A stretch of DNA of 32,455 bases, from positions 1-32,455 of the IMG/VR virus record IMGVR_UViG_3300008952_000178. One strand, given 5' to 3'. This DNA is from a virus. Below the pieces are notes generated by a model. It did not search any database. It had not been told where the DNA came from and saw nothing but the letters and a program-made list of their open reading frames with translations. A program made the position numbers and the translations under genes. Position 1 is the first letter of the stretch. Each line of letters begins with the position of its first letter. Below are positions 2,705 through 32,455 of the stretch, piece after piece.

Positions 2705-3386
2705 ATGTAAGTATTGCCATAAATCATTTAAACGTGAACGAACTCTTGCCGTTCATATGTGTCAACAAAAACATAGATGGAATGCAAAAGACGAATTGCC
2801 TAGTAGAATGGCCTTTGAAGCATTTTGTGTATTTCATAAAACTTGTATGCCTGGTAATGTATATGGAAGTACACCACCATTAGAAAAATTTATTAATTCA
2901 CCTGAATACAACGGATTTTATACATTTGGCAAATATCTTTCAGAACTCAAGTTGCCATTGGATCAGCAACAAGAATTTATGAAATTTGTTATGCAACAAG
3001 GTGTTAAAATAAAAGATTGGACAAAAAGTTTTGTATTAGAAGAATTTATTAAATTGTATTCATTAAAAGAAGATCCTAAGAGGGCAGTCGAATCTGTCAT
3101 ATTATTAGCAGAGGAATGGGGCAATGAAAATAACGGACATTGGACAGAATTTTTTGACAAAGTATCCGCGAGTATGGCAACTCACTTTATTATCACCGGA
3201 CGTATTAGTCCTTGGATTATTTATGGTACTGATGCTGGTCAGCGGATGGTGGATAGATTAAATGAACGGGAATTAGAATTAGTAGTTAACCATATTAACG
3301 TTAATACATGGAAGCATAAATTAAAGAAATATCCTGCATCTTTAAATGAATTAGAAATTATAGATGAAACTTGTATCACAAGATAA
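2655..3386 (+). CDS. Phage protein with N-terminal C2H2 zinc finger
   Basis: A 243-residue protein that starts inside the gp62-like gene. Residues about 17-40 form a C2H2 finger (C-x2-C-x12-H-x5-H; CKYCHKSFKRERTLAVHMC), so nucleic-acid binding is likely. The remaining roughly 200 residues are helical with no enzyme motif; ISPWIIY and similar blocks recur in proteins I recall from marine T4-like phages with unknown function. ATG 2655 is preferred because the upstream ATG at 2640 would lengthen the overlap and adds only a polar stretch. The 3' end overlaps the next gene by 23 bases. A role in replication or late transcription is possible but unproven. Confidence 0.78.
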   Translation: MLTSKDSQTKKLTESFKCKYCHKSFKRERTLAVHMCQQKHRWNAKDELPSRMAFEAFCVFHKTCMPGNVYGSTPPLEKFINSPEYNGFYTFGKYLSELKLPLDQQQEFMKFVMQQGVKIKDWTKSFVLEEFIKLYSLKEDPKRAVESVILLAEEWGNENNGHWTEFFDKVSASMATHFIITGRISPWIIYGTDAGQRMVDRLNERELELVVNHINVNTWKHKLKKYPASLNELEIIDETCITR

Positions 3387-4026
3387 CGTATTATTATTTC
3401 CTATAAATGTATATAAATTTAATATAGAAAATTTTGATCAACAAAAATTTGCAAAATTTGCTATTAGAGTACAAGATTTATGTCCATCTGAACTACGAAC
3501 CGGTACTGGTTGGCAAAGCCCCCAGGATATACATAATATAAACAAATATTTTAAAGAAAAAGAAGATATTGATTGTATAACAGAAATATTAGAAATGTTA
3601 TCTGATGGTATTGATAAAATAGCAGAAGATTATGAATTTAACAAATTAAATCTTAATTTAGAGGCTAGAATATTATCTTTATGGTTTAATATAAATCATT
3701 CAGGAGCATTTAATAGAAGTCATAATCACGGACCAACAGGGTATTCGGGAGCGTTTTATATACAAAAAAATGAAAATCAAGGTGATATTATTTTTGACGA
3801 TATTAGACGGGAATCAAAATTATGGATGGTACCGAACGCTTTTTTTAAAAATGATAAATGGGTAAGAGAAAAAATATTTGGATCTAGAGAAATTAATACA
3901 AGAACAGGAGATGTATTGATGTTTCCTTCGTGGGCAGATCATTTGGTAGACGTAAATCAAACACCAAATCTTAGGATATCCGTTTCTTTTAATTTTAATT
4001 GGTGTGAAAAAAATGACAGATATTGA
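3364..4026 (+). CDS. 2OG-Fe(II) oxygenase-like protein
   Basis: A 220-residue protein of the phage 2-oxoglutarate/Fe(II) dioxygenase type, a double-stranded beta-helix hydroxylase. The visible landmarks are HNHGPTGYSGAFYI (first iron ligands), the hydrophobic strand GDVLMFPSWADHLVDVN (distal His) and RISVSFNFNW (Arg that would bind 2-oxoglutarate). The substrate is unknown; it could be a protein, nucleic acid or small molecule. It overlaps both neighbours, so it belongs to the same operon as the zinc-finger gene. It is one of four oxygenase-fold genes in the window and the most divergent of the three PF13759-like ones. Confidence 0.75.
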   Translation: MKLVSQDNVLLFPINVYKFNIENFDQQKFAKFAIRVQDLCPSELRTGTGWQSPQDIHNINKYFKEKEDIDCITEILEMLSDGIDKIAEDYEFNKLNLNLEARILSLWFNINHSGAFNRSHNHGPTGYSGAFYIQKNENQGDIIFDDIRRESKLWMVPNAFFKNDKWVREKIFGSREINTRTGDVLMFPSWADHLVDVNQTPNLRISVSFNFNWCEKNDRY

Positions 4027-15852: not shown

Positions 15853-16265
15853 CTGAAGCCGACAAATATGGTAATGACGAATTAGTTGCCGATCTAAAAG
15901 GTCTATATAATAAATATGGACCATCGGTCACAAATTTTTTAAGCCAAGTCAGAGACTCGGCCATACAACAGGCTAGCCAAGGATATGATGCATATCAAAA
16001 GCATGTAGGTCAACCTTTTGCTAAAGGTGCATATAAAACAGGTCGTGCATTAAATAAAGGTGCAGATGAATTTTCTAAAAAATTAGGTAATACTGATTGG
16101 AACATAACACAAATGGGTCCTGACAATAAATATGGTAATGAAGACTTTTTTGCTGACCTTCAAAAGTTTGGATCTGCCGCTAGTAGTGGTACAGATGAAT
16201 TTGTAGCAGATTTAAATAGACCTAACCCTAAAGCCATAGCAGGAAGTGGAATGAAGGTAAAATAG
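15840..16265 (+). CDS. Frameshifted 3' extension of the preceding gene
   Basis: From the A10 run the -1 frame encodes about 141 further residues without a stop, although it has no ATG, GTG or TTG near its start; the first ATG is at about 16112. It begins KFKITEADKYGNDELVADL and contains a second copy of the same pattern, NKYGNEDFFADLQKF, about 90 residues later. Its TAG shares one base with the GTG of the next gene (TAGTG), as translationally coupled genes do. It is probably made as a fusion by slippage on A10. It could also be a separate gene that lost its start, or a homopolymer sequencing error. Confidence 0.7.
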   Translation, partial: KFKITEADKYGNDELVADLKGLYNKYGPSVTNFLSQVRDSAIQQASQGYDAYQKHVGQPFAKGAYKTGRALNKGADEFSKKLGNTDWNITQMGPDNKYGNEDFFADLQKFGSAASSGTDEFVADLNRPNPKAIAGSGMKVK

Positions 16266-16603
16266 TGCGAGCTAACGAAATAATTCAGGAAAATAGATTT
16301 GACCCCGAATCTATGAAACACGAAGTACTTACATTATTAACCTCGGCGGCAGCCGAAGGTATTACACAGATATCTCCAATTAATTTATTGCAAGATCTTA
16401 AAGCAATGGGGTATTCTATGACAATGAGTGGTTTATACGAATTATTAAATGGAGAACAACTTATTAAAAATATCAGTAATGATGTAATTGAACTTGCAAT
16501 TACTGATGCAGATGCATTTACTAATCCTGAAAAAAGCGAAGCAGATGTAAATAAAATACATAAAACAGCAGTTAAACAAGCAAATAAGGAAATAGGAATA
16601 TAG
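16265..16603 (+). CDS. Small phage protein with capsid-targeting-like N-terminus
   Basis: A 112-residue helical, acidic protein. GTG at 16265 overlaps the stop of the frameshifted region. The N-terminus MRANEIIQENRF is close in pattern to the T4 capsid-targeting sequence MKTYQEFIAE, with I-Q-E at residues 7-9. The remainder looks like a small helical winged-helix-type domain (INLLQDLKAMGYSMTMSGLYELL). No specific function is recognised. It is followed one base later by the next gene. Confidence 0.72.
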   Translation: MRANEIIQENRFDPESMKHEVLTLLTSAAAEGITQISPINLLQDLKAMGYSMTMSGLYELLNGEQLIKNISNDVIELAITDADAFTNPEKSEADVNKIHKTAVKQANKEIGI

Positions 16604-16604
16604 A

Positions 16605-16952
16605 ATGGCTTATTTTATTAGTGCAAAACAAGCAAGAGATAAAGCAAGAAAAGATTCTGTTATTAATACAGAAACAGCAAGCATCGAAGCGGCAATTTTA
16701 ACAGCAGTAGAATCTAATTTACTTACAGCAACTATTGATGACGGTACTACAATGACAGAATCTAATAGCGGTGATGCGGCACAAGTTCTTGCTGAAAGTT
16801 ATCATTCTGTTTGGCAAGGTGGTACTACTGATGCAACAAAAACAGATCAAATGGCACAAGTAATTAAGTATTTTGTTGATTTAGGATACAGTATCCATCG
16901 ACAAATAAATACTGCCTCAAATACCACATTCAAGTGGGTAGTTAGTTGGTAA
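16605..16952 (+). CDS. Small conserved phage protein, possibly structural
   Basis: A 115-residue protein. The N-terminal half is helical (MAYFISAKQARDKARKDSVINTE splits into a short strand and a helix). The C-terminal part is a helix and strand with YFVDLGYSIHRQIN. The many Thr and Asp residues in the middle suggest a surface loop. There is no membrane segment or catalytic motif. It is the last of the small-gene cluster and is one base from the hydroxylase-like gene that follows. Confidence 0.7.
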   Translation: MAYFISAKQARDKARKDSVINTETASIEAAILTAVESNLLTATIDDGTTMTESNSGDAAQVLAESYHSVWQGGTTDATKTDQMAQVIKYFVDLGYSIHRQINTASNTTFKWVVSW

Positions 16953-16953
16953 T

Positions 16954-17535
16954 ATGAATATTGTAACATATAACGAATTATTTATAAAACTCCCTTTAGC
17001 ATTTAATATTGCAGAATTACGAAAAGCAACTCATACAGTTAGGAATCTTGCTAAAGCATTAATTGGTAAAGACTTTAACGAAACATATACGTTAGCATTA
17101 AATCATAAAAAGAATGGCGATCCTTGGGAAGGCCAAAAAGTTCGAGGATATTACTGGACACGCCCTGATGATACTTATGAAGAAGTAGAACGATGTGAGC
17201 CAATTAAAGAAGATGCATATACAGAATTTAATGAACATTTTAAACATACATATTTTGCCGAAGTATATAACACATTAACAGAAAAATATAAAACAGGTAG
17301 AATGCGATTAATGTTGCTTCCACCTAGGTCAACAATTAGTTGGCACAGAGATCCTGAAAAACGTATACACATTCCTATTACATCAAATGCGGGATGTAGG
17401 CACATTATAGAAGATGAAGTAATACATATTCCTGCTGATGGACAAGCATGGATACATGATGATACTAAGTATCATACAGTCACCAATGGTGGTGAGACAC
17501 CTAGAATATCTTTAGTAACAACTCTTTTAAACTAA
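16954..17535 (+). CDS. Aspartyl/asparaginyl beta-hydroxylase-like oxygenase
   Basis: A 193-residue protein of the 2OG-Fe(II) superfamily, aspartyl/asparaginyl hydroxylase type. SWHRDPEKRIHIPI supplies the H-x-D iron ligands, KYHTVTNGGETPRISLV supplies the distal His and the Arg that binds 2-oxoglutarate, and the beta-helix spacing between them is normal. All core residues are present, so it is probably active. The target could be Asp, Asn or Arg side chains of a virion or host protein; this is not determinable here. It starts the oxygenase pair that runs to 18255. Confidence 0.82.
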   Translation: MNIVTYNELFIKLPLAFNIAELRKATHTVRNLAKALIGKDFNETYTLALNHKKNGDPWEGQKVRGYYWTRPDDTYEEVERCEPIKEDAYTEFNEHFKHTYFAEVYNTLTEKYKTGRMRLMLLPPRSTISWHRDPEKRIHIPITSNAGCRHIIEDEVIHIPADGQAWIHDDTKYHTVTNGGETPRISLVTTLLN

Positions 17536-17538
17536 TAT

Positions 17539-18255
17539 ATGATAAGAAAAATATTTGGTGAAAGTATAGGTGTATATACCTTACCTAATGCAGAATCATA
17601 TAATGATGATTTCATTAAGTTTGCATATTACTCTAAAAATTTAGTTGAGAATACAGATATTTTTAAACTAATGAAAGAGTCGGATGCTCCTCAAGATATG
17701 AAAGATCATATAGAACCTTTTATACATAGATCACATTACATACCAGGTTATCCTTTAAAATTTTTAGATGATGTGATGTGGGCATTAAATGAGTATACAC
17801 GAGAATTAGGACCAGAATTTAATCAACATAATTTTCCTTATTTGGTACCATATGTATCTCGAGCATGGACTAACATAACTATGCAAGGCGATTATATAGG
17901 ATCACACGATCATGCACGATTTGATGCTAAGTTTAGTGTATCGTATTATCCTAAATTTTTACCAGAGCAAGGAGATTTACATATGGAAAACACTGGTTTA
18001 AAAGCAACTAAGAGAACATACCCTTGTAATGAAGTTCCTGTTAGAGAAAGAATTGAAGGTAAACAAGGACAAATAATAATATTTCCAGGGTACCTAAAGC
18101 ATCACACAGAAATTAATAAATCGCCAGAAGATAGAATATCTACTTCATGTGATATTAAATACATAGGAATTAATAGTGATCTTCCGCCGCCTAAAGTAGT
18201 AGAAGATATAACTTCTGCATTTCAAAAAGAACTAACAAAAAATTTTAAATTATGA
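17539..18255 (+). CDS. 2OG-Fe(II) oxygenase, paralogue of the gene at 28971
   Basis: A 238-residue double-stranded beta-helix oxygenase. HDHARFDAKFSVSYYP gives the H-x-H type iron ligands, GQIIIFPGYLKHHTEIN gives the distal His, and DRISTSCDIKY gives the Arg. The N-terminus (GESIGVYTLP) and the C-terminus (DLPPPKVVEDITSAF) match those of the protein encoded at 28971, so the two are paralogues. The substrate is unknown. The stop overlaps the DUF454 gene start (ATGA). Confidence 0.8.
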   Translation: MIRKIFGESIGVYTLPNAESYNDDFIKFAYYSKNLVENTDIFKLMKESDAPQDMKDHIEPFIHRSHYIPGYPLKFLDDVMWALNEYTRELGPEFNQHNFPYLVPYVSRAWTNITMQGDYIGSHDHARFDAKFSVSYYPKFLPEQGDLHMENTGLKATKRTYPCNEVPVRERIEGKQGQIIIFPGYLKHHTEINKSPEDRISTSCDIKYIGINSDLPPPKVVEDITSAFQKELTKNFKL

Positions 18256-25332: not shown

Positions 25333-25341
25333 AATAGACGG

Positions 25342-25370
25342 TTGACACACAATTTTAATTATGTTATAAT
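25342..25370 (+). promoter_or_regulatory. Consensus sigma70 promoter of the tmRNA gene
   Basis: TTGACA (25342-25347), a 17-base spacer and TATAAT (25365-25370) match the consensus at all 12 positions. The predicted +1 near 25377-25378 falls directly before the first paired bases of the tmRNA acceptor piece. Confidence 0.93.
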
Positions 25371-25502
25371 AAATATTAATGTTGTTAAAGACTCTTTGTT
25401 GAAAACGACTGGACGGCGGTGCGATTCCGCCCACCTCCACCAAATAAAAATTAGAAGCATTTAATGGAATAAATGAAACTCGTACTTCCGGGGAGAATCG
25501 GT

Positions 25503-25604
25503 ATGGACGGGGAATTTGCTACAATCGTTATTATTAGTCTTATAATAGGTATTGTTTTGTTTGGAATAAATTTTTTAGAAAATAACAGTATTTGGCTCTT
25601 TTAG
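25503..25604 (+). CDS. Small membrane-peptide ORF inside the tmRNA spacer
   Basis: A 33-residue ORF lies in the 174-base spacer (25443-25616) between the tmRNA pieces. GGGGAGA at 25490-25496 is a strong ribosome binding site six bases before ATG 25503. The peptide starts MDGEF, then has one membrane helix (ATIVIISLIIGIVLFGI) and a short tail NFLENNSIWLF. An upstream in-frame ATG at 25473 would add ten residues. Such a gene could only be translated from the unprocessed precursor or the excised spacer. It may be chance, but ribosome site, start and membrane helix together argue for a real gene. Confidence 0.5.
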   Translation: MDGEFATIVIISLIIGIVLFGINFLENNSIWLF

Positions 25605-25676
25605 TTTTTAGTTGATGGGGGTGAAATAGATATCGACACCGTGGGATGCAACGACGAGACAACAAAAAACATAATC

Positions 25677-25724
25677 GCAAATAATAACGATTATTCACCT
25701 GCACAGGTTATGCTTGCCGCATAA
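25677..25724 (+). other. tmRNA tag-peptide reading frame
   Basis: The resume codon GCA (25677) opens the tag ANNNDYSPAQVMLAA and ends in TAA (25722-25724). Ala-Asn-x-x-Asp/Glu-Tyr resembles the SspB-binding part of the E. coli tag AANDENYALAA, and the terminal Leu-Ala-Ala is the ClpX degron. The tag is 15 residues, longer than the typical 11-12 including the first Ala. Confidence 0.88.
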
Positions 25725-25816
25725 TCAGTAGCCGAGTTAGAGGATTGTCCTCCGGGGGGTCACTTGGGAACAGAAGAATTCCCCCATTACACACAGACAC
25801 ACACAAGGAGAAAATT

Positions 25817-26047
25817 ATGTCTAGTAATCCATTTGAACTTAGATTCAAATTACTTGAAATGGCCCAAGGCTATCTTCAAGAACAAACAGCAAGGCAAGAG
25901 CAATTTGTTACGGATGCTTGGAATCTAGCAATAGAGAACGGTACCGCAACTATGGAGTTTTGGAAAGAACTTCAGCCAAAGTCATATAGCATTGATGATA
26001 TTAAGACTAAGGCCACTGAGCTCTACGAATTTGTTGAAAACAAATAA
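25817..26047 (+). CDS. Small conserved phage protein of unknown function
   Basis: A 76-residue helical protein (SNPFELRFKLLEMAQGYLQEQ, then IDDIKTKATELYEFVENK). AAGGAGAAAATT precedes ATG 25817, and an upstream in-frame TTG at 25745 lies inside the tmRNA and is rejected. Similar short proteins starting with N-P-F-E-L-R-F occur in marine T4-like phages as I recall them, with no function assigned. It has no promoter of its own between it and the tmRNA, so it is probably made by read-through from the tmRNA promoter. A terminator follows. Confidence 0.82.
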   Translation: MSSNPFELRFKLLEMAQGYLQEQTARQEQFVTDAWNLAIENGTATMEFWKELQPKSYSIDDIKTKATELYEFVENK

Positions 26048-26055
26048 TTTAAATT

Positions 26056-26080
26056 AGGGGGACTAAGTCCCCCTTATTAT
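26056..26080 (+). terminator. Intrinsic terminator after the tmRNA / small-gene unit
   Basis: AGGGGGAC (26056-26063) pairs with GTCCCCCT (26067-26074) around a TAA loop. The following TTATTAT is only moderately T-rich. Confidence 0.75.
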
Positions 26081-26145
26081 AGTAATAGTTAACCACCAAA
26101 AAACACTGAAAAGTGGTCAAAACAACCAAATATACTAAAAAACCA

Positions 26146-26178
26146 GGTAAATATACTAGTGATTATAGATAATCACTA
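26146..26178 (+). promoter_or_regulatory. Late-type promoter followed by a 5'-end hairpin
   Basis: GGTAAATA (26146-26153) is a late-type box with predicted +1 near 26159. TAGTGATTAT (26157-26166) and ATAATCACTA (26169-26178) form a perfect 10-bp inverted repeat with a 2-base gap, so the hairpin would sit at the very 5' end of the mRNA. AACAGGAG (26179-26186) then serves ATG 26195. The 5' hairpin may stabilise the transcript. Confidence 0.55.
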
Positions 26179-26194
26179 ACAGGAGTAAAAAACT

Positions 26195-26422
26195 ATGGAC
26201 ATTATTAAAAATGTATCTGCTTGGATTAGAGGACTTACAGAAATTGGTCTTTCGGTCATAGCATTAGGCGTTGTATTCCAAATCATTTTTGGTACAAACG
26301 TAGTATTCCTTCCTATCGACATCCTAGGTAATGTAATCAGTTTCGTGAAAGCATTAGGTGGAGAAGGACTTGTTGGCTTAATCGCGTTATGGATCCTTTG
26401 GGGAATCTACAACAAGAAGTAA
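26195..26422 (+). CDS. Small two-helix membrane protein, holin candidate
   Basis: A 75-residue protein with two hydrophobic segments, about residues 17-40 (GLSVIALGVVFQIIFGTNVV) and 55-71 (GEGLVGLIALWILWGIY), and a basic end NKK. Size, two membrane helices and the endolysin gene 130 bases downstream fit a class II holin, which would form membrane lesions that time lysis. Similar small proteins in marine T4-like phages are usually left unassigned. It has its own late-type promoter, 5' hairpin and a terminator-like hairpin after the stop. Confidence 0.72.
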   Translation: MDIIKNVSAWIRGLTEIGLSVIALGVVFQIIFGTNVVFLPIDILGNVISFVKALGGEGLVGLIALWILWGIYNKK

Positions 26423-26440
26423 CGAGGAATTCTAAACTAG

Positions 26441-26484
26441 TCCCTGTCTTATTTCACGAATGATCCTAGGCAGGGATTCCTTTT
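26441..26484 (+). terminator. Possible intrinsic terminator
   Basis: TCCCTGTC (26441-26448) pairs with GGCAGGGA (26469-26476), eight pairs including one G-U, with a long 20-base loop and then TTCCTTTT. The long loop makes it less certain than the others. Confidence 0.5.
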
Positions 26485-26554
26485 ACGAATTTGAGGTTTA
26501 CACCAATGACAAAAAAAATAATTTAATATTTAAAATTTAGTGAGGAATAATAGT

Positions 26555-27163
26555 ATGAAAAAAATTATACTAACCGCCTTGTCATATCTTTTTTTAGGTG
26601 GAATGGCGTTAGGAATCCAGGGCGAGATATCAAAAGCCACAAAGCAAATTGAACAACATACAGAACCAAAATTTAGAAATACGTTTATGGTGTTCTCAAA
26701 AGAACAAGTAGAATGTCTTGCTATGAACATTTATCATGAAGCAAGGAATGAAAGTTTATCAGGAAAGATTGCGGTAATATTGGTTACAATGAATAGAGTT
26801 GCAGATAAAAGATTTCCTGCTTCTATTTGTAAAGTAGTTCATGAAGGAAAACATTATTACAATGAGAAAAAGAAAAAATATTATCCTTTTAGAGACCGCT
26901 GTCAATTTAGTTGGTATTGCGATGGAAAATTAGATGAACCAAAAAATAAAAAAGCCTGGGCATATTCATTGGCCTTATCAGAATATTTTCTTAAACGCTC
27001 GATGATGATTATTGATTTTACCGAAGGAGCAACTCATTATCATGCAGGTTGGATGGAGAAGTTTCCTCGATGGTCAAAACGTAAAAATTTTGTTAAAACG
27101 GTAACAATAGATACACATTTATTCTATAGATGGGAGAATCCTAAACTACTCGCATCACGATAA
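26555..27163 (+). CDS. SleB-family cell-wall hydrolase (endolysin) with signal sequence
   Basis: A 202-residue lysin. Residues 1-23 (KKIILTALSYLFLGGMALGIQ) form a signal peptide or signal-anchor. From about residue 48 there is a SleB/Hydrolase_2 domain: ECLAMNIYHEARNE (catalytic Glu), VILVTMNRVADKRFP, CQFSWYCDG and GATHYHAGWMEKFP, the conserved order of the family. It cuts peptidoglycan, probably as a lytic transglycosylase or amidase. ATG 26555 follows GAGGAATAAT and lies after an upstream in-frame GTG (26540). The signal sequence suggests export or signal-anchor-release control of lysis. Confidence 0.88.
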   Translation: MKKIILTALSYLFLGGMALGIQGEISKATKQIEQHTEPKFRNTFMVFSKEQVECLAMNIYHEARNESLSGKIAVILVTMNRVADKRFPASICKVVHEGKHYYNEKKKKYYPFRDRCQFSWYCDGKLDEPKNKKAWAYSLALSEYFLKRSMMIIDFTEGATHYHAGWMEKFPRWSKRKNFVKTVTIDTHLFYRWENPKLLASR

Positions 27164-27166
27164 ATA
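27159..27166 (+). promoter_or_regulatory. T4-late-like promoter GATAAATA
   Basis: GATAAATA overlaps the stop of the endolysin gene. With T4 spacing +1 is 27172, the A of the next ATG, and there is no ribosome binding site, so a leaderless mRNA is predicted. Confidence 0.5.
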
Positions 27167-27171
27167 TTTGT

Positions 27172-27849
27172 ATGTTTATATATGAAGTAACAAAACCGTA
27201 TGCACATAAAAAATTACTGGCTTCATTAAAAAGTATGGAGCCAGAAATAGTAGGGCAACGATTAGACAAATATAAATTAACTAGTATTGTCCAAGATGCG
27301 TTAGAACCATATAGAGTTGAGGTTGAATTTACAAACACATCTAACGTACCTAAGGATGAAATAAATATGAATGCTGGTTATTCCCAAAGTGTTGATAAAT
27401 GGAATGATCCAGATCATTATGCAACAAATTTAGATTTGTTGTTTAATAATAGACAGAGAACTTATAGTTTCTCTAAAGAAGGTTTTGATGAATTGGTTGT
27501 TAGAATTAATGATGCAATAGGACACGAAAGAATTCATCAAAGACAGGCAAGAAAAAGAAAATTACGCCATCCAGGCTCTGAATATACAGGACCTGAAAAA
27601 GGCAAGGCAGAAAGAGATTATTTAGGAAAACCCGACGAAGTAGAAGCTTTTTCGTACAATATAGCAAGTGAATTGTTACGTCGGCATGATAAAGAAACTA
27701 TCATAAATGCATTTAGAACGGGTGATTTAAGTATTCTAAAAGATAGCATAAATTTCGTTGCGTATCTTTCTAGTTTTGAAGATACAGATAATAAAACTAT
27801 GCGAAATTTAATTAATAAAATTTTAAAGTATATAGAAAATTTAGATTAA
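27172..27849 (+). CDS. HExxH putative zinc metallopeptidase-like protein
   Basis: A 225-residue protein. HERIH at residues 118-122 is an HExxH zinc site preceded by a helix (FDELVVRINDAIG). DEVEAFSYNIASELL has Glu about residue 158, placed where a third ligand of a gluzincin could be. The N-terminal 110 residues are an unrecognised alpha/beta region and the C-terminus is helical. It has no signal sequence and sits between endolysin and SNase-like genes. A processing protease for virion or host proteins is a reasonable guess. Expression may be leaderless. Confidence 0.65.
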   Translation: MFIYEVTKPYAHKKLLASLKSMEPEIVGQRLDKYKLTSIVQDALEPYRVEVEFTNTSNVPKDEINMNAGYSQSVDKWNDPDHYATNLDLLFNNRQRTYSFSKEGFDELVVRINDAIGHERIHQRQARKRKLRHPGSEYTGPEKGKAERDYLGKPDEVEAFSYNIASELLRRHDKETIINAFRTGDLSILKDSINFVAYLSSFEDTDNKTMRNLINKILKYIENLD

Positions 27850-27862
27850 AAGAGGATTATGC

Positions 27863-28222
27863 ATGTACGAATACAAAGCACGACTTGTAAGAGTTATAGA
27901 TGGGGGTACTATTGATGCCGATATTGATATGGGATTTCAAGTCCATATTGGCCAACGTATCAAACTATTTGGTGTTAATGCTCCCGATCCTAAATCACAT
28001 GATAGTGTAGAACGAGAAAAGGGATTAGCATCAAAGAATAGATTAATAGAAATTTTACCTAAGGAAATTGTAGTACGAACAATGTTAAATAAACGAGGTA
28101 AAGTTGGAAGAATATTAGGAACTATTTTTGTTAAAGAAGAACATGGCGAACTTACAAACATAAATGACTTAATTATAAAAGAAGGATTTGCTACCCCTTA
28201 TCCAACAAATGAAGATAAATAA
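27863..28222 (+). CDS. SNase-domain protein with altered active site
   Basis: A 119-residue protein of the staphylococcal nuclease (thermonuclease) fold: YKARLVRVIDGGTIDADID, then QRIKLFGVNAPDPK, then LASKNRLIEILP and GKVGRILGTIFV. Arg residues equivalent to R35 and R87 are kept. The metal ligand Asp of DGDT is Gly here, D40 is Asn, and E43 is Asp. Activity may be reduced or changed. AGAGGATTATGC precedes ATG 27863. Location beside late genes hints at DNA processing at the end of infection, but this is inference. Confidence 0.82.
   Translation: MYEYKARLVRVIDGGTIDADIDMGFQVHIGQRIKLFGVNAPDPKSHDSVEREKGLASKNRLIEILPKEIVVRTMLNKRGKVGRILGTIFVKEEHGELTNINDLIIKEGFATPYPTNEDK
28214..28221 (+). promoter_or_regulatory. 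T4-late-like promoter GATAAATA
   Basis: GATAAATA overlaps the SNase stop codon and lies 24 bases before the structural gene at 28245. TTAGGAG (28232-28238) is the ribosome binding site. Confidence 0.6.
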
Positions 28223-28244
28223 TTAAAACACTTAGGAGTTATAA

Positions 28245-28967
28245 ATGTCACAAGAACGATTTACAATAACAAGCCCAGCATACGGATCAGATGGATCTTC
28301 TACCCAAGGTAAAACAAATGGGTCCGGAGAAAACCATGCAGGTGCAACTTTTTTAAATGATCCGCTAACAGTTAATAGTACTACAAATATTTCTAATTCA
28401 AATGCTGATGGTGCCGCTACTCCTAAATTATATGAATATGCTATTACTACTGGATCTATGACTGCCTCCAGCACAAATGGAACAGTTGCAAGTGCAGATA
28501 GTTCTGCATATACTTCAGCTAATATTAGCACAGATGCTAAAGCAGAAGCAATAGAACGAAGTAATATGCGTTTTCATAATATGCTTGCTAGACTAGGAGA
28601 AACAGAAGAAATTGTACGTTTTGAAATCGATAGTGAAACATTACCTGCAGGCACAGGTGTTCCTACAGCATCAAGTACATTTACAGTAACATATGCAAAA
28701 CAACCAACACACCCAGATTCAACATATACTGCCGGAGCATTAGCAGTAAAAAGATTAGCCGCCGAAGGAATATCGTTCAATGGCGTTTCAACTTCCCAAC
28801 TTAGACATGTTTATTATCCTAAAAAAATAACAGCAGGTACTGAAAATAAACTTTATTACCAACGAAAAGAAATTACATGTCCTGTTTTAGATACGGATGT
28901 AGCCACATTATATGGAAAAATGGGCTGTACCGAGACTATTCAAAATGCGACACATAGTCATCCATAA
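28245..28967 (+). CDS. Putative virion structural protein
   Basis: A 240-residue protein. Residues about 1-100 are low-complexity Ser/Thr/Gly/Ala/Asn (NGSGENHAGATF, TNISNSNADGAATPK). About 100-240 form a compact alpha/beta domain with FHNMLARLGETEEIVRFEID and QLRHVYYPKKITAG, ending with two His. There is no enzyme motif. A late-type promoter and strong ribosome binding site suit an abundant virion protein. Fibre, neck or head assignment is not possible from sequence alone. Confidence 0.72.
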   Translation: MSQERFTITSPAYGSDGSSTQGKTNGSGENHAGATFLNDPLTVNSTTNISNSNADGAATPKLYEYAITTGSMTASSTNGTVASADSSAYTSANISTDAKAEAIERSNMRFHNMLARLGETEEIVRFEIDSETLPAGTGVPTASSTFTVTYAKQPTHPDSTYTAGALAVKRLAAEGISFNGVSTSQLRHVYYPKKITAGTENKLYYQRKEITCPVLDTDVATLYGKMGCTETIQNATHSHP

Positions 28968-28970
28968 TAT

Positions 28971-29756
28971 ATGGCCAAACCCGATAAGCAAATTATAAAA
29001 AGACAAATATATGAACCCTTTGGGTTTAGAATAGGTGTATATGACCTTGACTGCCATCACTCAATAAACCAATGGTTGGTGGAACGGGCATATACTCTTG
29101 ATAAATTTTCACAAGAACACGCTGATACTTTTTGGGAAATACCTGGTGCCGAAATGGGTGTCCGTACAAAATATAATGATAATAAAGAATCGTTTATTGG
29201 TGCCCATACATGGATTATGAATAGGTGTCATAATTTTCCTGGATTTCCTCAGGAACTTTTAGGTAAAATTATGACATGTGCATATGATTATGCAAAGTAT
29301 GTAGGTGCATCTTTAAAAGCACCAGAAAATTGTATGTTATACATAGAACGATGCTGGTCGACAATAACAAAACCAGGTGATGTAATTAGAGGACACAATC
29401 ATTCTCGTCATATGTTTGCCTCAGCATATTATCCATCTCATAGTCCTGACCAAGGAGATCTTTGGTTTGACAGGGGCGATCCATATGGACATTTTTTATT
29501 ATACGAACCTAACAAAGGGCCTGCTGAAAGATCTCATATAAAAGTAAAGCCGGGGCAGTTCGTAATATTTCCTTCTGTTGCATTACACGGAACAGATGTA
29601 AACAAATCTTCAAAAGACAGAATTTCATATTCTTTTGATATAGACCCAGTTGGATTAGATTATAAATTACCACCTACTAAAATAGTAGAAGATGCATGGC
29701 ATGATTTTAATACAACTATAACAAAAATTGGACTAACGGAGGCATTATCGGAATGA
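28971..29756 (+). CDS. 2OG-Fe(II) oxygenase, paralogue of the gene at 17539
   Basis: A 261-residue oxygenase. HNHSRHMFASAYYPSHS gives the first iron ligands, GQFVIFPSVALHGTDVN the distal His and DRISYSFDIDP the Arg. FRIGVYDLD near the N-terminus and LPPTKIVEDAWHDF near the C-terminus match the protein encoded at 17539, so both come from one ancestor and share the extra C-terminal element. The target is unknown. It starts three bases after the structural gene, without a ribosome binding site, and overlaps the next gene by four bases. Confidence 0.8.
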   Translation: MAKPDKQIIKRQIYEPFGFRIGVYDLDCHHSINQWLVERAYTLDKFSQEHADTFWEIPGAEMGVRTKYNDNKESFIGAHTWIMNRCHNFPGFPQELLGKIMTCAYDYAKYVGASLKAPENCMLYIERCWSTITKPGDVIRGHNHSRHMFASAYYPSHSPDQGDLWFDRGDPYGHFLLYEPNKGPAERSHIKVKPGQFVIFPSVALHGTDVNKSSKDRISYSFDIDPVGLDYKLPPTKIVEDAWHDFNTTITKIGLTEALSE

Positions 29757-31366
29757 TATTTGGTTTATTTGTGCTATTTACGGCATTATTAATATCAGGA
29801 GTAGCCGCCTGGTATTCTATTGTTGGACTAATGGCTATTTTTAGTGGAGCCGCTTTGGCAATTGCTATTATGGGCGGAGTATTAGAAGTAGGTAAATTAG
29901 TTACAGCAAGTTGGCTTTATAATTATTGGAAGGTAGTACCTAGATTTCTTAAAATATATCTTACAGGTGCAGTAGTAGGTTTAATGTTTATTACATCTAT
30001 GGGTATCTTTGGGTTTTTATCTAAAGCACACTTAGAACAAACTGCAATGTCTGAAGAGCAAGTTGCCCAAATAACAGTTTATGAAGGCAAGTTAGTTAGA
30101 GCAAATGCAAAAATAACACGCTGGACAGATGAAATAGATCGGTTAAACAAAGGCGAAAACGTTAGAGTAGATAATATAGTTGCTAGTGAAGAAGAGCAAC
30201 TACAACGATTATACAGTCGTATTGATACAGAAAAAGAAGCATTAAGATTAACTGCCAAAGGCGCAATTGATATACAACAAGAAAAATTAAAAGATTCAGA
30301 TCAAAGAACAAAAGATGATATAGCACTTATTAGTAAACGTGAAGGTGACAATCAAGAAGAAATAGATAAAATACGACAACGTGAAAGAGGCATTGCATGG
30401 ATTGCTCGTAGAGATATTGGTAAAATACAAGATCAACTAAAATTAGATTTATTAGAAATAGATAAAAGATATGCACCTGATGTAGATGCAGTTAATAAAC
30501 GTATTGCTACACTTAAAGAACAATCTAATTTAAAAACAGAAGATATAGATAAACGTGTAAACGAATTAGAAGGATTTATTGAAGCAGAACAAGTAATAGT
30601 CGATAGCGTTAGGGATGATAAATTGGTTTTAGAAAAAACATACAGAGCATTAGAAGTAGAAGTTGGTCCGGTAAAATATATTGCAGAATTTATATATGGT
30701 GATAATGCATCGGGTATGTTAGATAGTGCAGTTAGAGGAGTTATTTTATTATTAATATTTGTTTTTGATCCTCTTGCAGTATTATTAGTTATTGCAGGAA
30801 ATATGACTATACGGCAATATATTGATTTAAAACCTTTAAATATGCGAAAGGAAGACGATAATGATGTTAGAATTGAACAGGAAGATATACCAGAAAGACC
30901 AATTCCTGAAACAGAACCAGAGCCTGAGCCGGAACCGCCTGAACCTGAGCGAGAAGTTAGAGTTGATGAAGATGTTGTTGAACATAAAGAGGAAGAAGAG
31001 GTTGGCGTTTCAGAAGCAAGTGAGGAAGTTCAGCGGGACGATATTAGACCTGCAATAGGAAAAGCAACACGATCACCTGAACCAGGAATTGCTGGAATTA
31101 TTCATCCAGAAAAAGATGAAGAAACAGAACAGAATATAAATGAAATAAAAGAAATATTAGAGAAAGCAGATCCTGAAGTAAGAGAAAAAGTAGCAAAAGA
31201 ATTAGAAAAAGAAGACGACGAAGTAGTACCAGTATTAGTTGATAAAACAAATAAAACAGTTTTAGAACCATTAGTTAGTAAAGGAAGGTCATTATTAAAA
31301 TCTTTAGCATCCGGCAAGAGCAAGAAAGTGAGTTGGATTAATACACCACATGAACCCGAACACTAA
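29753..31366 (+). CDS. Membrane protein with long coiled coil and acidic tail
   Basis: A 537-residue protein. Three membrane helices lie near residues 2-25, 28-52 and 66-90. A long coiled coil runs from about residue 100 to 310 ([35 protein letters not shown]). A further membrane helix is near 322-345 ([19 protein letters not shown]). The C-terminal 180 residues are acidic with Glu-Pro repeats ([17 protein letters not shown]) and a final basic patch. Both ends probably face the cytoplasm. I recall unassigned homologues in marine T4-like phages. It could act on the host envelope, in superinfection exclusion or as a ClpX-linked scaffold, but none of these is shown. Confidence 0.82.
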
Positions 31367-32455
31367 AAACTTTATCTGTAGTTTTTGTAATAAAACTCGA
31401 GAAGAAGTTAAAAAATTAATTCAAGGTCCTGACAACGGCGCTTTTATATGCGACGAATGTATTAAACTTTCCTTTGATATTATTAGTGAAGAAGAAAGTG
31501 AAATTAATGAACATTATGTTTACACCCCACAAGCAATTTACGACCATTTAAATGAATTTGTCATTGGTCAACACGAAGCAAAAAAAGTCTTATCAGTAGC
31601 AGTATATAATCATTATAAACGAATTAATCATATAGCATCAGACATAGAATTGGATAAATCTAATGTACTGTTATTAGGTCCGTCTGGCTGTGGTAAAACA
31701 TTAATGGCAAGTACAGTAGCAAAAATATTAGATGTGCCATTTGCAATAGCCGATGCAACTACAGTAACAGAAGCAGGATATGTAGGCGATGATGTAGAAA
31801 ATTTAATAACTAAACTATTGCATAATGCAGAATATGATATTGATAGGGCAGAAAAAGGTATTGTATATGTTGATGAAATAGATAAAAAAGGACGAAAATC
31901 TGAATCTGCAAGTATTACGAGAGATGTAAGCGGCGAAGGAGTCCAACAAGCATTGTTAAAAATGATAGAAGGCACCGAAGTTCGTGTACCCCCAGCAGGT
32001 GGAAGAAAGCATCCTCAATCTGAAATAGTAGAAGTTGATACTAAAAACATATTGTTTATATTAGGAGGAGCATTTATAGATTTAGAAAAGCATATTAAAA
32101 AACGATTAAACAAAACAAAATCGATAGGATTTGGAGCAATAATAGATGAACAACAAGATGACACAAATTATTTTAATCGAGTAGAACCAGACGATTTAGT
32201 TGAGTATGGCATGATACCTGAATTAGTAGGTAGAGTACCTGTACGTGTAGGTTTAAAAGAACTTACAAAAAAACAGTTAATACAAGTATTACAAGAACCT
32301 AAAAATAGCATTATTAAACAATTTAAACGAATATTTGAAATGGATAATGTTAAATTAGAATTTACAGATAAAGCATGTGAAGAAATAGTTAAAATTTGTA
32401 ATGATACAAAAGTCGGCGCAAGAGGATTGCGATCAGTTATAGAAAATGCATTATT
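31350..32455 (+). CDS. clpX: ClpX, ATPase subunit of the ClpXP protease (3' end outside window)
   Basis: At least 368 residues, open to the window end. The N-terminal zinc domain has C-S-F-C and [12 protein letters not shown] is Walker A near residue 112; [10 protein letters not shown] holds pore loop 1; IVYVDEID is Walker [18 protein letters not shown] and GGRKHP (pore loop 2) follow. KSIGFGA is the IGF loop that docks Clp[10 protein letters not shown] and GARGLRS are sensor motifs. ClpX unfolds tagged proteins and feeds them to ClpP. It overlaps the previous gene by 17 bases. No ClpP is visible here, so host ClpP is the likely partner. Confidence 0.95.

Follow-up and report, generated by a model that had tools for sequence, protein, structure and literature searches.

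In many marine phages, the permuted tmRNA gene is quite probably a composite, serving both as the source of a tmRNA and as the mRNA for a small, exchangeable protein encoded in its intervening segment (IVS). A permuted tmRNA gene of this kind lies in the window, by which we mean the whole 32,455-base IMG/VR fragment IMGVR_UViG_3300008952_000178 analyzed here, which is AT-rich and carries nearly all of its large ORFs on the plus strand.

The case for a composite gene comes from 143 distinct permuted tmRNA genes of viral loci, parsed via the pairing of both acceptor strands. Their IVSs are 12-383 nt long; host IVSs are short (24 alphaproteobacterial genomes, when parsed, gave 11-43 nt), which rules out IVS ORFs in those hosts. 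The test set consisted of the 53 phage clusters whose IVS is 90 nt or longer; 27 of them contain an ATG-initiated ORF that follows a Shine-Dalgarno sequence and fills at least 60% of the IVS, against 0.88 expected from dinucleotide shuffles. When GTG starts are allowed, such ORFs are found in 28/53 clusters in the sense direction and in 1/53 in the antisense control. Many of the long phage IVSs are filled by such an ORF, which starts mostly 9-23 nt past the CCA, behind the Shine-Dalgarno sequence, and ends either 1-18 nt short of the start of the mRNA-like piece or 13 nt beyond it. Four homologous pairs of IVS ORFs from phages other than that of the window have dN/dS values of about 0.09-0.13 (dN about 0.09-0.16, dS about 1.0-1.6), and this sequence comparison shows coding (purifying) selection on several IVS genes of other phages.

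Several of the IVS proteins have homologs in other phages, encoded there by free-standing genes that immediately flank the tmRNA on one side or the other. The 62-aa protein in the IVS of L280, for example, is encoded in L345 by the gene that immediately precedes the tmRNA, and the IVS of L345 itself carries a different ORF. The IVS thus looks like a slot that exchanges content with neighboring genes. No homolog of the 114-aa protein encoded in the 383-nt IVS of L033 (G017) was found in isolate phages, and ten IVS proteins compared with the PHROGs families gave nothing convincing. As separate observations, the tmRNA matches of G017, G022, G023, and G029 are split in two pieces, suggesting large inserts, and the tmRNAs of the roseophages Bacteriophage DSS3_MAL1 (L457, 835-925) and Phaeobacter phage MD18 (L458, same region) have a long, GC-rich IVS that looks tRNA-like (GGTTCGAAACC) but in which ARAGORN called no tRNA.

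In fold predictions, the acceptor stem is maintained across the phage IVSs (median pairing probability 0.97), and the ends of the IVS lengthen it into a longer helix. In 16 of 29 predicted folds, although not in that of the window, the Shine-Dalgarno sequence is paired to the 3' end of the IVS, which hints at a competition between cargo translation and tmRNA folding. If the IVS is a slot for small protein genes, as we propose, the tmRNA precursor would also be an mRNA. RNase P is expected to cut where the mRNA-like piece begins, and the IVS stops lie at or just past that point. Since the Shine-Dalgarno sequence often falls within the acceptor-extending helix and the stops lie near this cut, a given precursor may be able either to have its cargo translated or to mature into tmRNA, but not both, a model that we regard as doubtful and put forward only tentatively.

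The tmRNA gene of the window

The window encodes an alpha-type permuted tmRNA on its plus strand. The Rfam model RF04321 (tmRNA_permuted) matches positions 25380-25724 with 83 bits against a cut-off of 47 (E 1.1e-14), and RF01849 (alpha tmRNA) matches 25338-25785 in permuted order with 56.8 bits against a cut-off of 50; ARAGORN did not detect the gene. The acceptor (3' tRNA-like) half occupies 25380-25442 and ends in CACCTCCACCA. It is followed by the IVS (25443-25616), which separates the CCA from the initial G of the mRNA-like piece and is expected to be excised from the mature two-piece tmRNA. The alignments to both Rfam models place the mRNA-like (5') piece at 25617-25785, and direct reading places the tag frame, ANNNDYSPAQVMLAA-TAA, at 25677-25724. 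The 7-bp acceptor stem is formed by GGGGGTG at 25617-25623 and CACCTCC-ACCA ending at 25442; it includes a G3-U70 wobble, which is the alanine determinant, its CCA is encoded, and its predicted pairing probability is 0.99. The T arm, resume codon, tag, and stop are likewise retained. Upstream, at 25342-25370 on the same strand, is a sigma-70 promoter, TTGACA-17-TATAAT, which agrees with the consensus at 12/12 positions and is retained in the related contigs L003 and L004. The only similarity of the window tmRNA to isolate-phage DNA is a 34-nt match in the T arm.

The LAA terminus of the tag is recognised by ClpX in E. coli, and it is present in 114 of the 129 phage tmRNA tags that were read. 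Unusually long tags, of about 29-37 aa with a common insert (e.g., NVTFVDFSAPVTAVNEDFALAA), occur in L227, L236, L241, L240, and their relatives. Downstream of the tmRNA, at 26195-26422, the window encodes a hydrophobic 75-aa protein that is 93% conserved in relatives, adjoins the endolysin gene, and is possibly a holin.

ClpX and the surrounding island

The second component lies at the end of the window, where the first 368 codons of clpX occupy 31350-32453 on the plus strand (Pfam zf-C4_ClpX and AAA_2). The gene is truncated only by the contig end, which removes its 3' end and leaves the motifs complete. The same species is represented in the 66-kb contig L007 by a complete ClpX of 410 aa (L007:10001-11233), which passes the NCBIfam clpX equivalogs TIGR00382 (542 vs 371 bits) and NF003745 (580 vs 359 bits). 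Alignment to PDB 8e91 shows that the four zinc cysteines, Walker A/B, GYVG, RKH, IGF, and the sensor-2 GARGLR are all kept. The original prediction that the window encodes both an LAA-tag tmRNA and a ClpX with its zinc domain, GYVG and RKH loops, and IGF loop is therefore borne out by the Rfam covariance matches, by the equivalog hits of the L007 copy, and by this alignment. From these motifs, it is likely that the phage ClpX recognizes the tag and docks ClpP.

In a ClpX tree, 23 phage sequences form one group apart from 80 bacterial ClpX (SH-aLRT 97), although the tree was built by a quick method with midpoint rooting only and contains some long branches. Because of this separation, the phage ClpX appears to represent a phage lineage of long standing; for a recent capture from a host the tree, within the same limits of method and rooting, gives no support.

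Directly upstream of clpX, and overlapping its start, is a gene at 29753-31366 (plus strand) for a conserved membrane and coiled-coil protein of unassigned function, which we used as an anchor. Its relatives occur in at least 80 viral loci, with Pelagibacter phage Mosig as the closest isolate match. Four other window ORFs (3364-4026, 16954-17535, 17539-18255, and 28971-29756) resemble 2OG-Fe(II) oxygenases, of which the Pfam check covered 28971-29756 only. In L007, clpX is followed by infC, hsp20, and clpS, that is, past the contig end of the window; neither these three genes nor the ORF in the IVS figured in the original prediction. The order tmRNA-anchor-clpX-infC-hsp20-clpS is kept in L003, L004, L007, and L018, and wider relatives show the recurring order tmRNA-anchor gene-clpX-(infC)-hsp20-clpS. 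The clpX-hsp20 order, mostly followed by clpS, persists down to about 45-57% ClpX identity, and clpX is accompanied by hsp20 and clpS in almost all loci examined. The gene infC (IF-3) directly follows clpX in 14 records, and in the ClpX tree these 14 are the clade of the window together with the sister clade. Farther along L007, downstream of clpS (16171-17748), lies a gene for a flavin-dependent halogenase-like protein with weak NCBIfam similarity to CmlS.

Co-occurrence of the tmRNA and clpX depends on how far from the window one looks. Six related viral contigs encode ClpX with 84-100% identity, and all five that extend far enough upstream have the tmRNA. Within the window's clade, the tmRNA and clpX occur with the same order and spacing in 7/7 testable records (including the window and L018), several of which are near-identical and hence represent some three or four lineages. 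The wider survey comprised 50 related records gathered via the anchor gene; 38 have the tmRNA and 21 have ClpX (two of these cut by contig ends), with both in 11, only the tmRNA in 27, only ClpX in 10, and neither in 2. Many of these records are fragments, and no positive association was found among them. All 50 were treated as fragments, and absences are therefore weak. In the clpX-positive, tmRNA-negative records, no standard one-piece tmRNA exceeded the cut-off. The tmRNA is thus the commoner element of the wider group and clpX is patchy; as each occurs without the other, they are not an obligate pair. The co-occurrence in relatives that the original prediction named as its test holds for the window's clade but is not matched by a positive association across the wider group.

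Matches to ClpP of more than 215 bits were found in 9 of the 50 records, and G009, G032, G037, and G038 combine tmRNA, ClpX, and ClpS with a strong, full-length clpP; some of these phages could therefore do without the ClpP of the host. No clpP was found in the clade of the window, which is represented by fragments only, including the 66-kb L007 contig. A ClpP-like gene with one in-frame TAG (G037:C1:56264-56788) adjoins a second, intact clpP. The gene clpS is present in 42 of the 50 records. No SmpB or SspB was found in the 50, which is as expected for SmpB if, as originally proposed, the phage uses that of the host.

It is possible, although we consider it unlikely, that the tmRNA and ClpX are independent genes that merely share a region, with the tmRNA recycling ribosomes only and ClpX lending its unfoldase activity to replication or to assembly of the virion. 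The 27 tmRNA-only and 10 clpX-only records are what this account would lead one to expect, and independent roles for ClpX have been suggested for jumbo phages, namely in translocation or virion assembly (PMC7824862) and in replication control (PMC11242549). It accommodates less readily the company that clpX keeps, with hsp20 and clpS nearly everywhere and with infC in its own clade, the retention of both the ClpP-docking IGF and the substrate-binding RKH loops, and the presence of clpP in relatives. We therefore prefer to see the two genes as parts of a translation-rescue and proteolysis island. The phage-owned tag-and-degrade module of the original prediction is plausible as a broad idea and gains from its ClpS and ClpP neighbors, but a strict two-part module is unsupported across the group.

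The intervening segment of the window

The IVS of the window is 174 nt long and is predicted to fold as an extended acceptor helix (z -2.8). It contains a putative gene for a hydrophobic, 33-aa membrane microprotein at 25503-25604 (plus strand), preceded by the Shine-Dalgarno sequence GGGGAG. Four lineages of the same clade (L243, L244, L247, and L250) have hydrophobic ORFs of 27-30 aa in the same place, starting 9-14 nt past the CCA, and in these four the Shine-Dalgarno-led ORF fills 82-90% of the IVS.

The window ORF could also be an accident, an AT-rich spacer that is open and hydrophobic by chance. It spans just under 60% of its IVS, an extent of 60% is reached by about 2.5% of shuffles, and the IVS ORFs of the window's clade, which are short and near saturation, lack a signal of purifying selection (pN/pS 0.84-1.2). 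Against such an accident stand the four further lineages of the clade and the selection acting on IVS ORFs of other phages, and we hold it to be rather improbable. The window ORF is accordingly a probable gene, its grade being lowered because the divergence within the clade is too high for a selection test, and the microprotein would be translated from the tmRNA precursor.

Discussion

The explanation that we favor, with a moderate degree of confidence attached to it as a whole, is that the window is a piece of a marine T4-like myophage genome carrying a translation-rescue and proteolysis island together with an IVS that acts as a slot for small genes. The gene structures, motifs, and gene order described above, as read from the DNA, would fit the following functional steps, which we infer. 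A host-like permuted tmRNA would be driven by a consensus host promoter, and the RNA would probably be cut to a two-piece tmRNA, charged with alanine, and loaded by host SmpB. It could then free ribosomes stalled on broken mRNA and append the LAA-ending tag. The phage ClpX, with host ClpP or, in relatives, phage ClpP, may unfold and degrade proteins that bear the tag as well as selected others. In parallel, the IVS of the phage tmRNA gene would offer a place for a small-protein gene, and the precursor would double as its mRNA.

Two further readings fare much worse. A decoy role like that proposed for the phage DS6A fragment would have the phage tmRNA titrate the SmpB of the host or block trans-translation there. 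It has a precedent in a phage form that consists of the TLD only and inhibits the endogenous tmRNA (PMC4131195; PMC11915505), but in the window tmRNA the mRNA-like piece, resume codon, tag, and stop are all intact, and most phage tags keep the LAA end, making such a role very improbable. Misassembly of host DNA into a viral contig would suit two bacterial housekeeping genes such as tmRNA and clpX, but it is already contradicted by the relatives and is next to negligible, given that the same phage genes flank them in several independent contigs, that the ClpX is unlike all 80 bacterial ClpX sampled, that the sampled host IVSs are so short, and that clpP was not found beside clpX in L007, the 66-kb contig from this species.

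If our explanation is true, a phage lineage owns a ribosome-rescue RNA, an unfoldase, an adaptor, a small heat-shock chaperone, and an initiation factor, with a protease in some members, and phage takeover of translation quality control becomes directly testable. The nested genes would be of wider import, as they would place a conserved protein gene inside a structural RNA gene, in a stretch regarded by databases as discarded spacer. Such genes likely escape annotation, because several of these tmRNAs go undetected by ARAGORN and gene calls for small ORFs within RNA genes are rare. A regulatory question also follows, namely how a single transcript can double as an mRNA and as the precursor of the tmRNA.

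Phage tmRNAs are known mostly in one-piece form, with two-piece forms in marine phages as well (PMC9004378). Methylophilales phage Melnitz and Pelagibacter phage Mosig, both T4-like marine myophages, likewise have a permuted alpha-type ssrA, and selective tagging of host proteins was already proposed in that report; it differs from our analysis in that it does not mention ClpX and, in its accessible part, describes no ORF in the intervening segment. The IVS of Mosig itself is a short hairpin, unlike the ORF-bearing IVSs described here.

The combination of tmRNA and ClpX, which had been called striking, is less unique than this wording suggested. The genome of Bacillus phage G encodes both a tmRNA (PMC4131195) and a ClpX (gp258), as pieced together from separate sources. 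Sinorhizobium jumbo phage AP-J-162 (PMC11242549) also has a tmRNA, along with Hsp20, other Clp genes, and a clpX that directly adjoins IF-3; it differs in being a 471-kb soil jumbo phage, and the accessible text does not tie its tmRNA to clpX or proteolysis and describes no IVS gene. Since both phages are on record with tmRNA and ClpX, the pairing alone is not new. Jumbo phages are known to carry ClpX, ClpP, ClpS, or IF3 of the same protein families (PMC7824862), but there the Clp and IF3 genes are treated as separate, patchy genes and tmRNA is unmentioned.

For protein genes within the IVS of permuted tmRNAs, no report was found in the accessible open-access literature. The largest tmRNA survey (PMC11915505), in its available portion, reports that one permuted IVS contains a tRNA gene and that another contains a repetitive element, and describes no protein genes. 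A parallel is found in the group I introns with homing endonuclease genes that the same survey describes in tmRNA, in that a protein gene likewise lies within a tmRNA gene; here, in contrast, the host site is the IVS of the permuted form, and the proteins compared fall in no convincing PHROGs family. The nested IVS protein genes are thus the newest result of this work, the pairing of tmRNA with ClpX being already on record.
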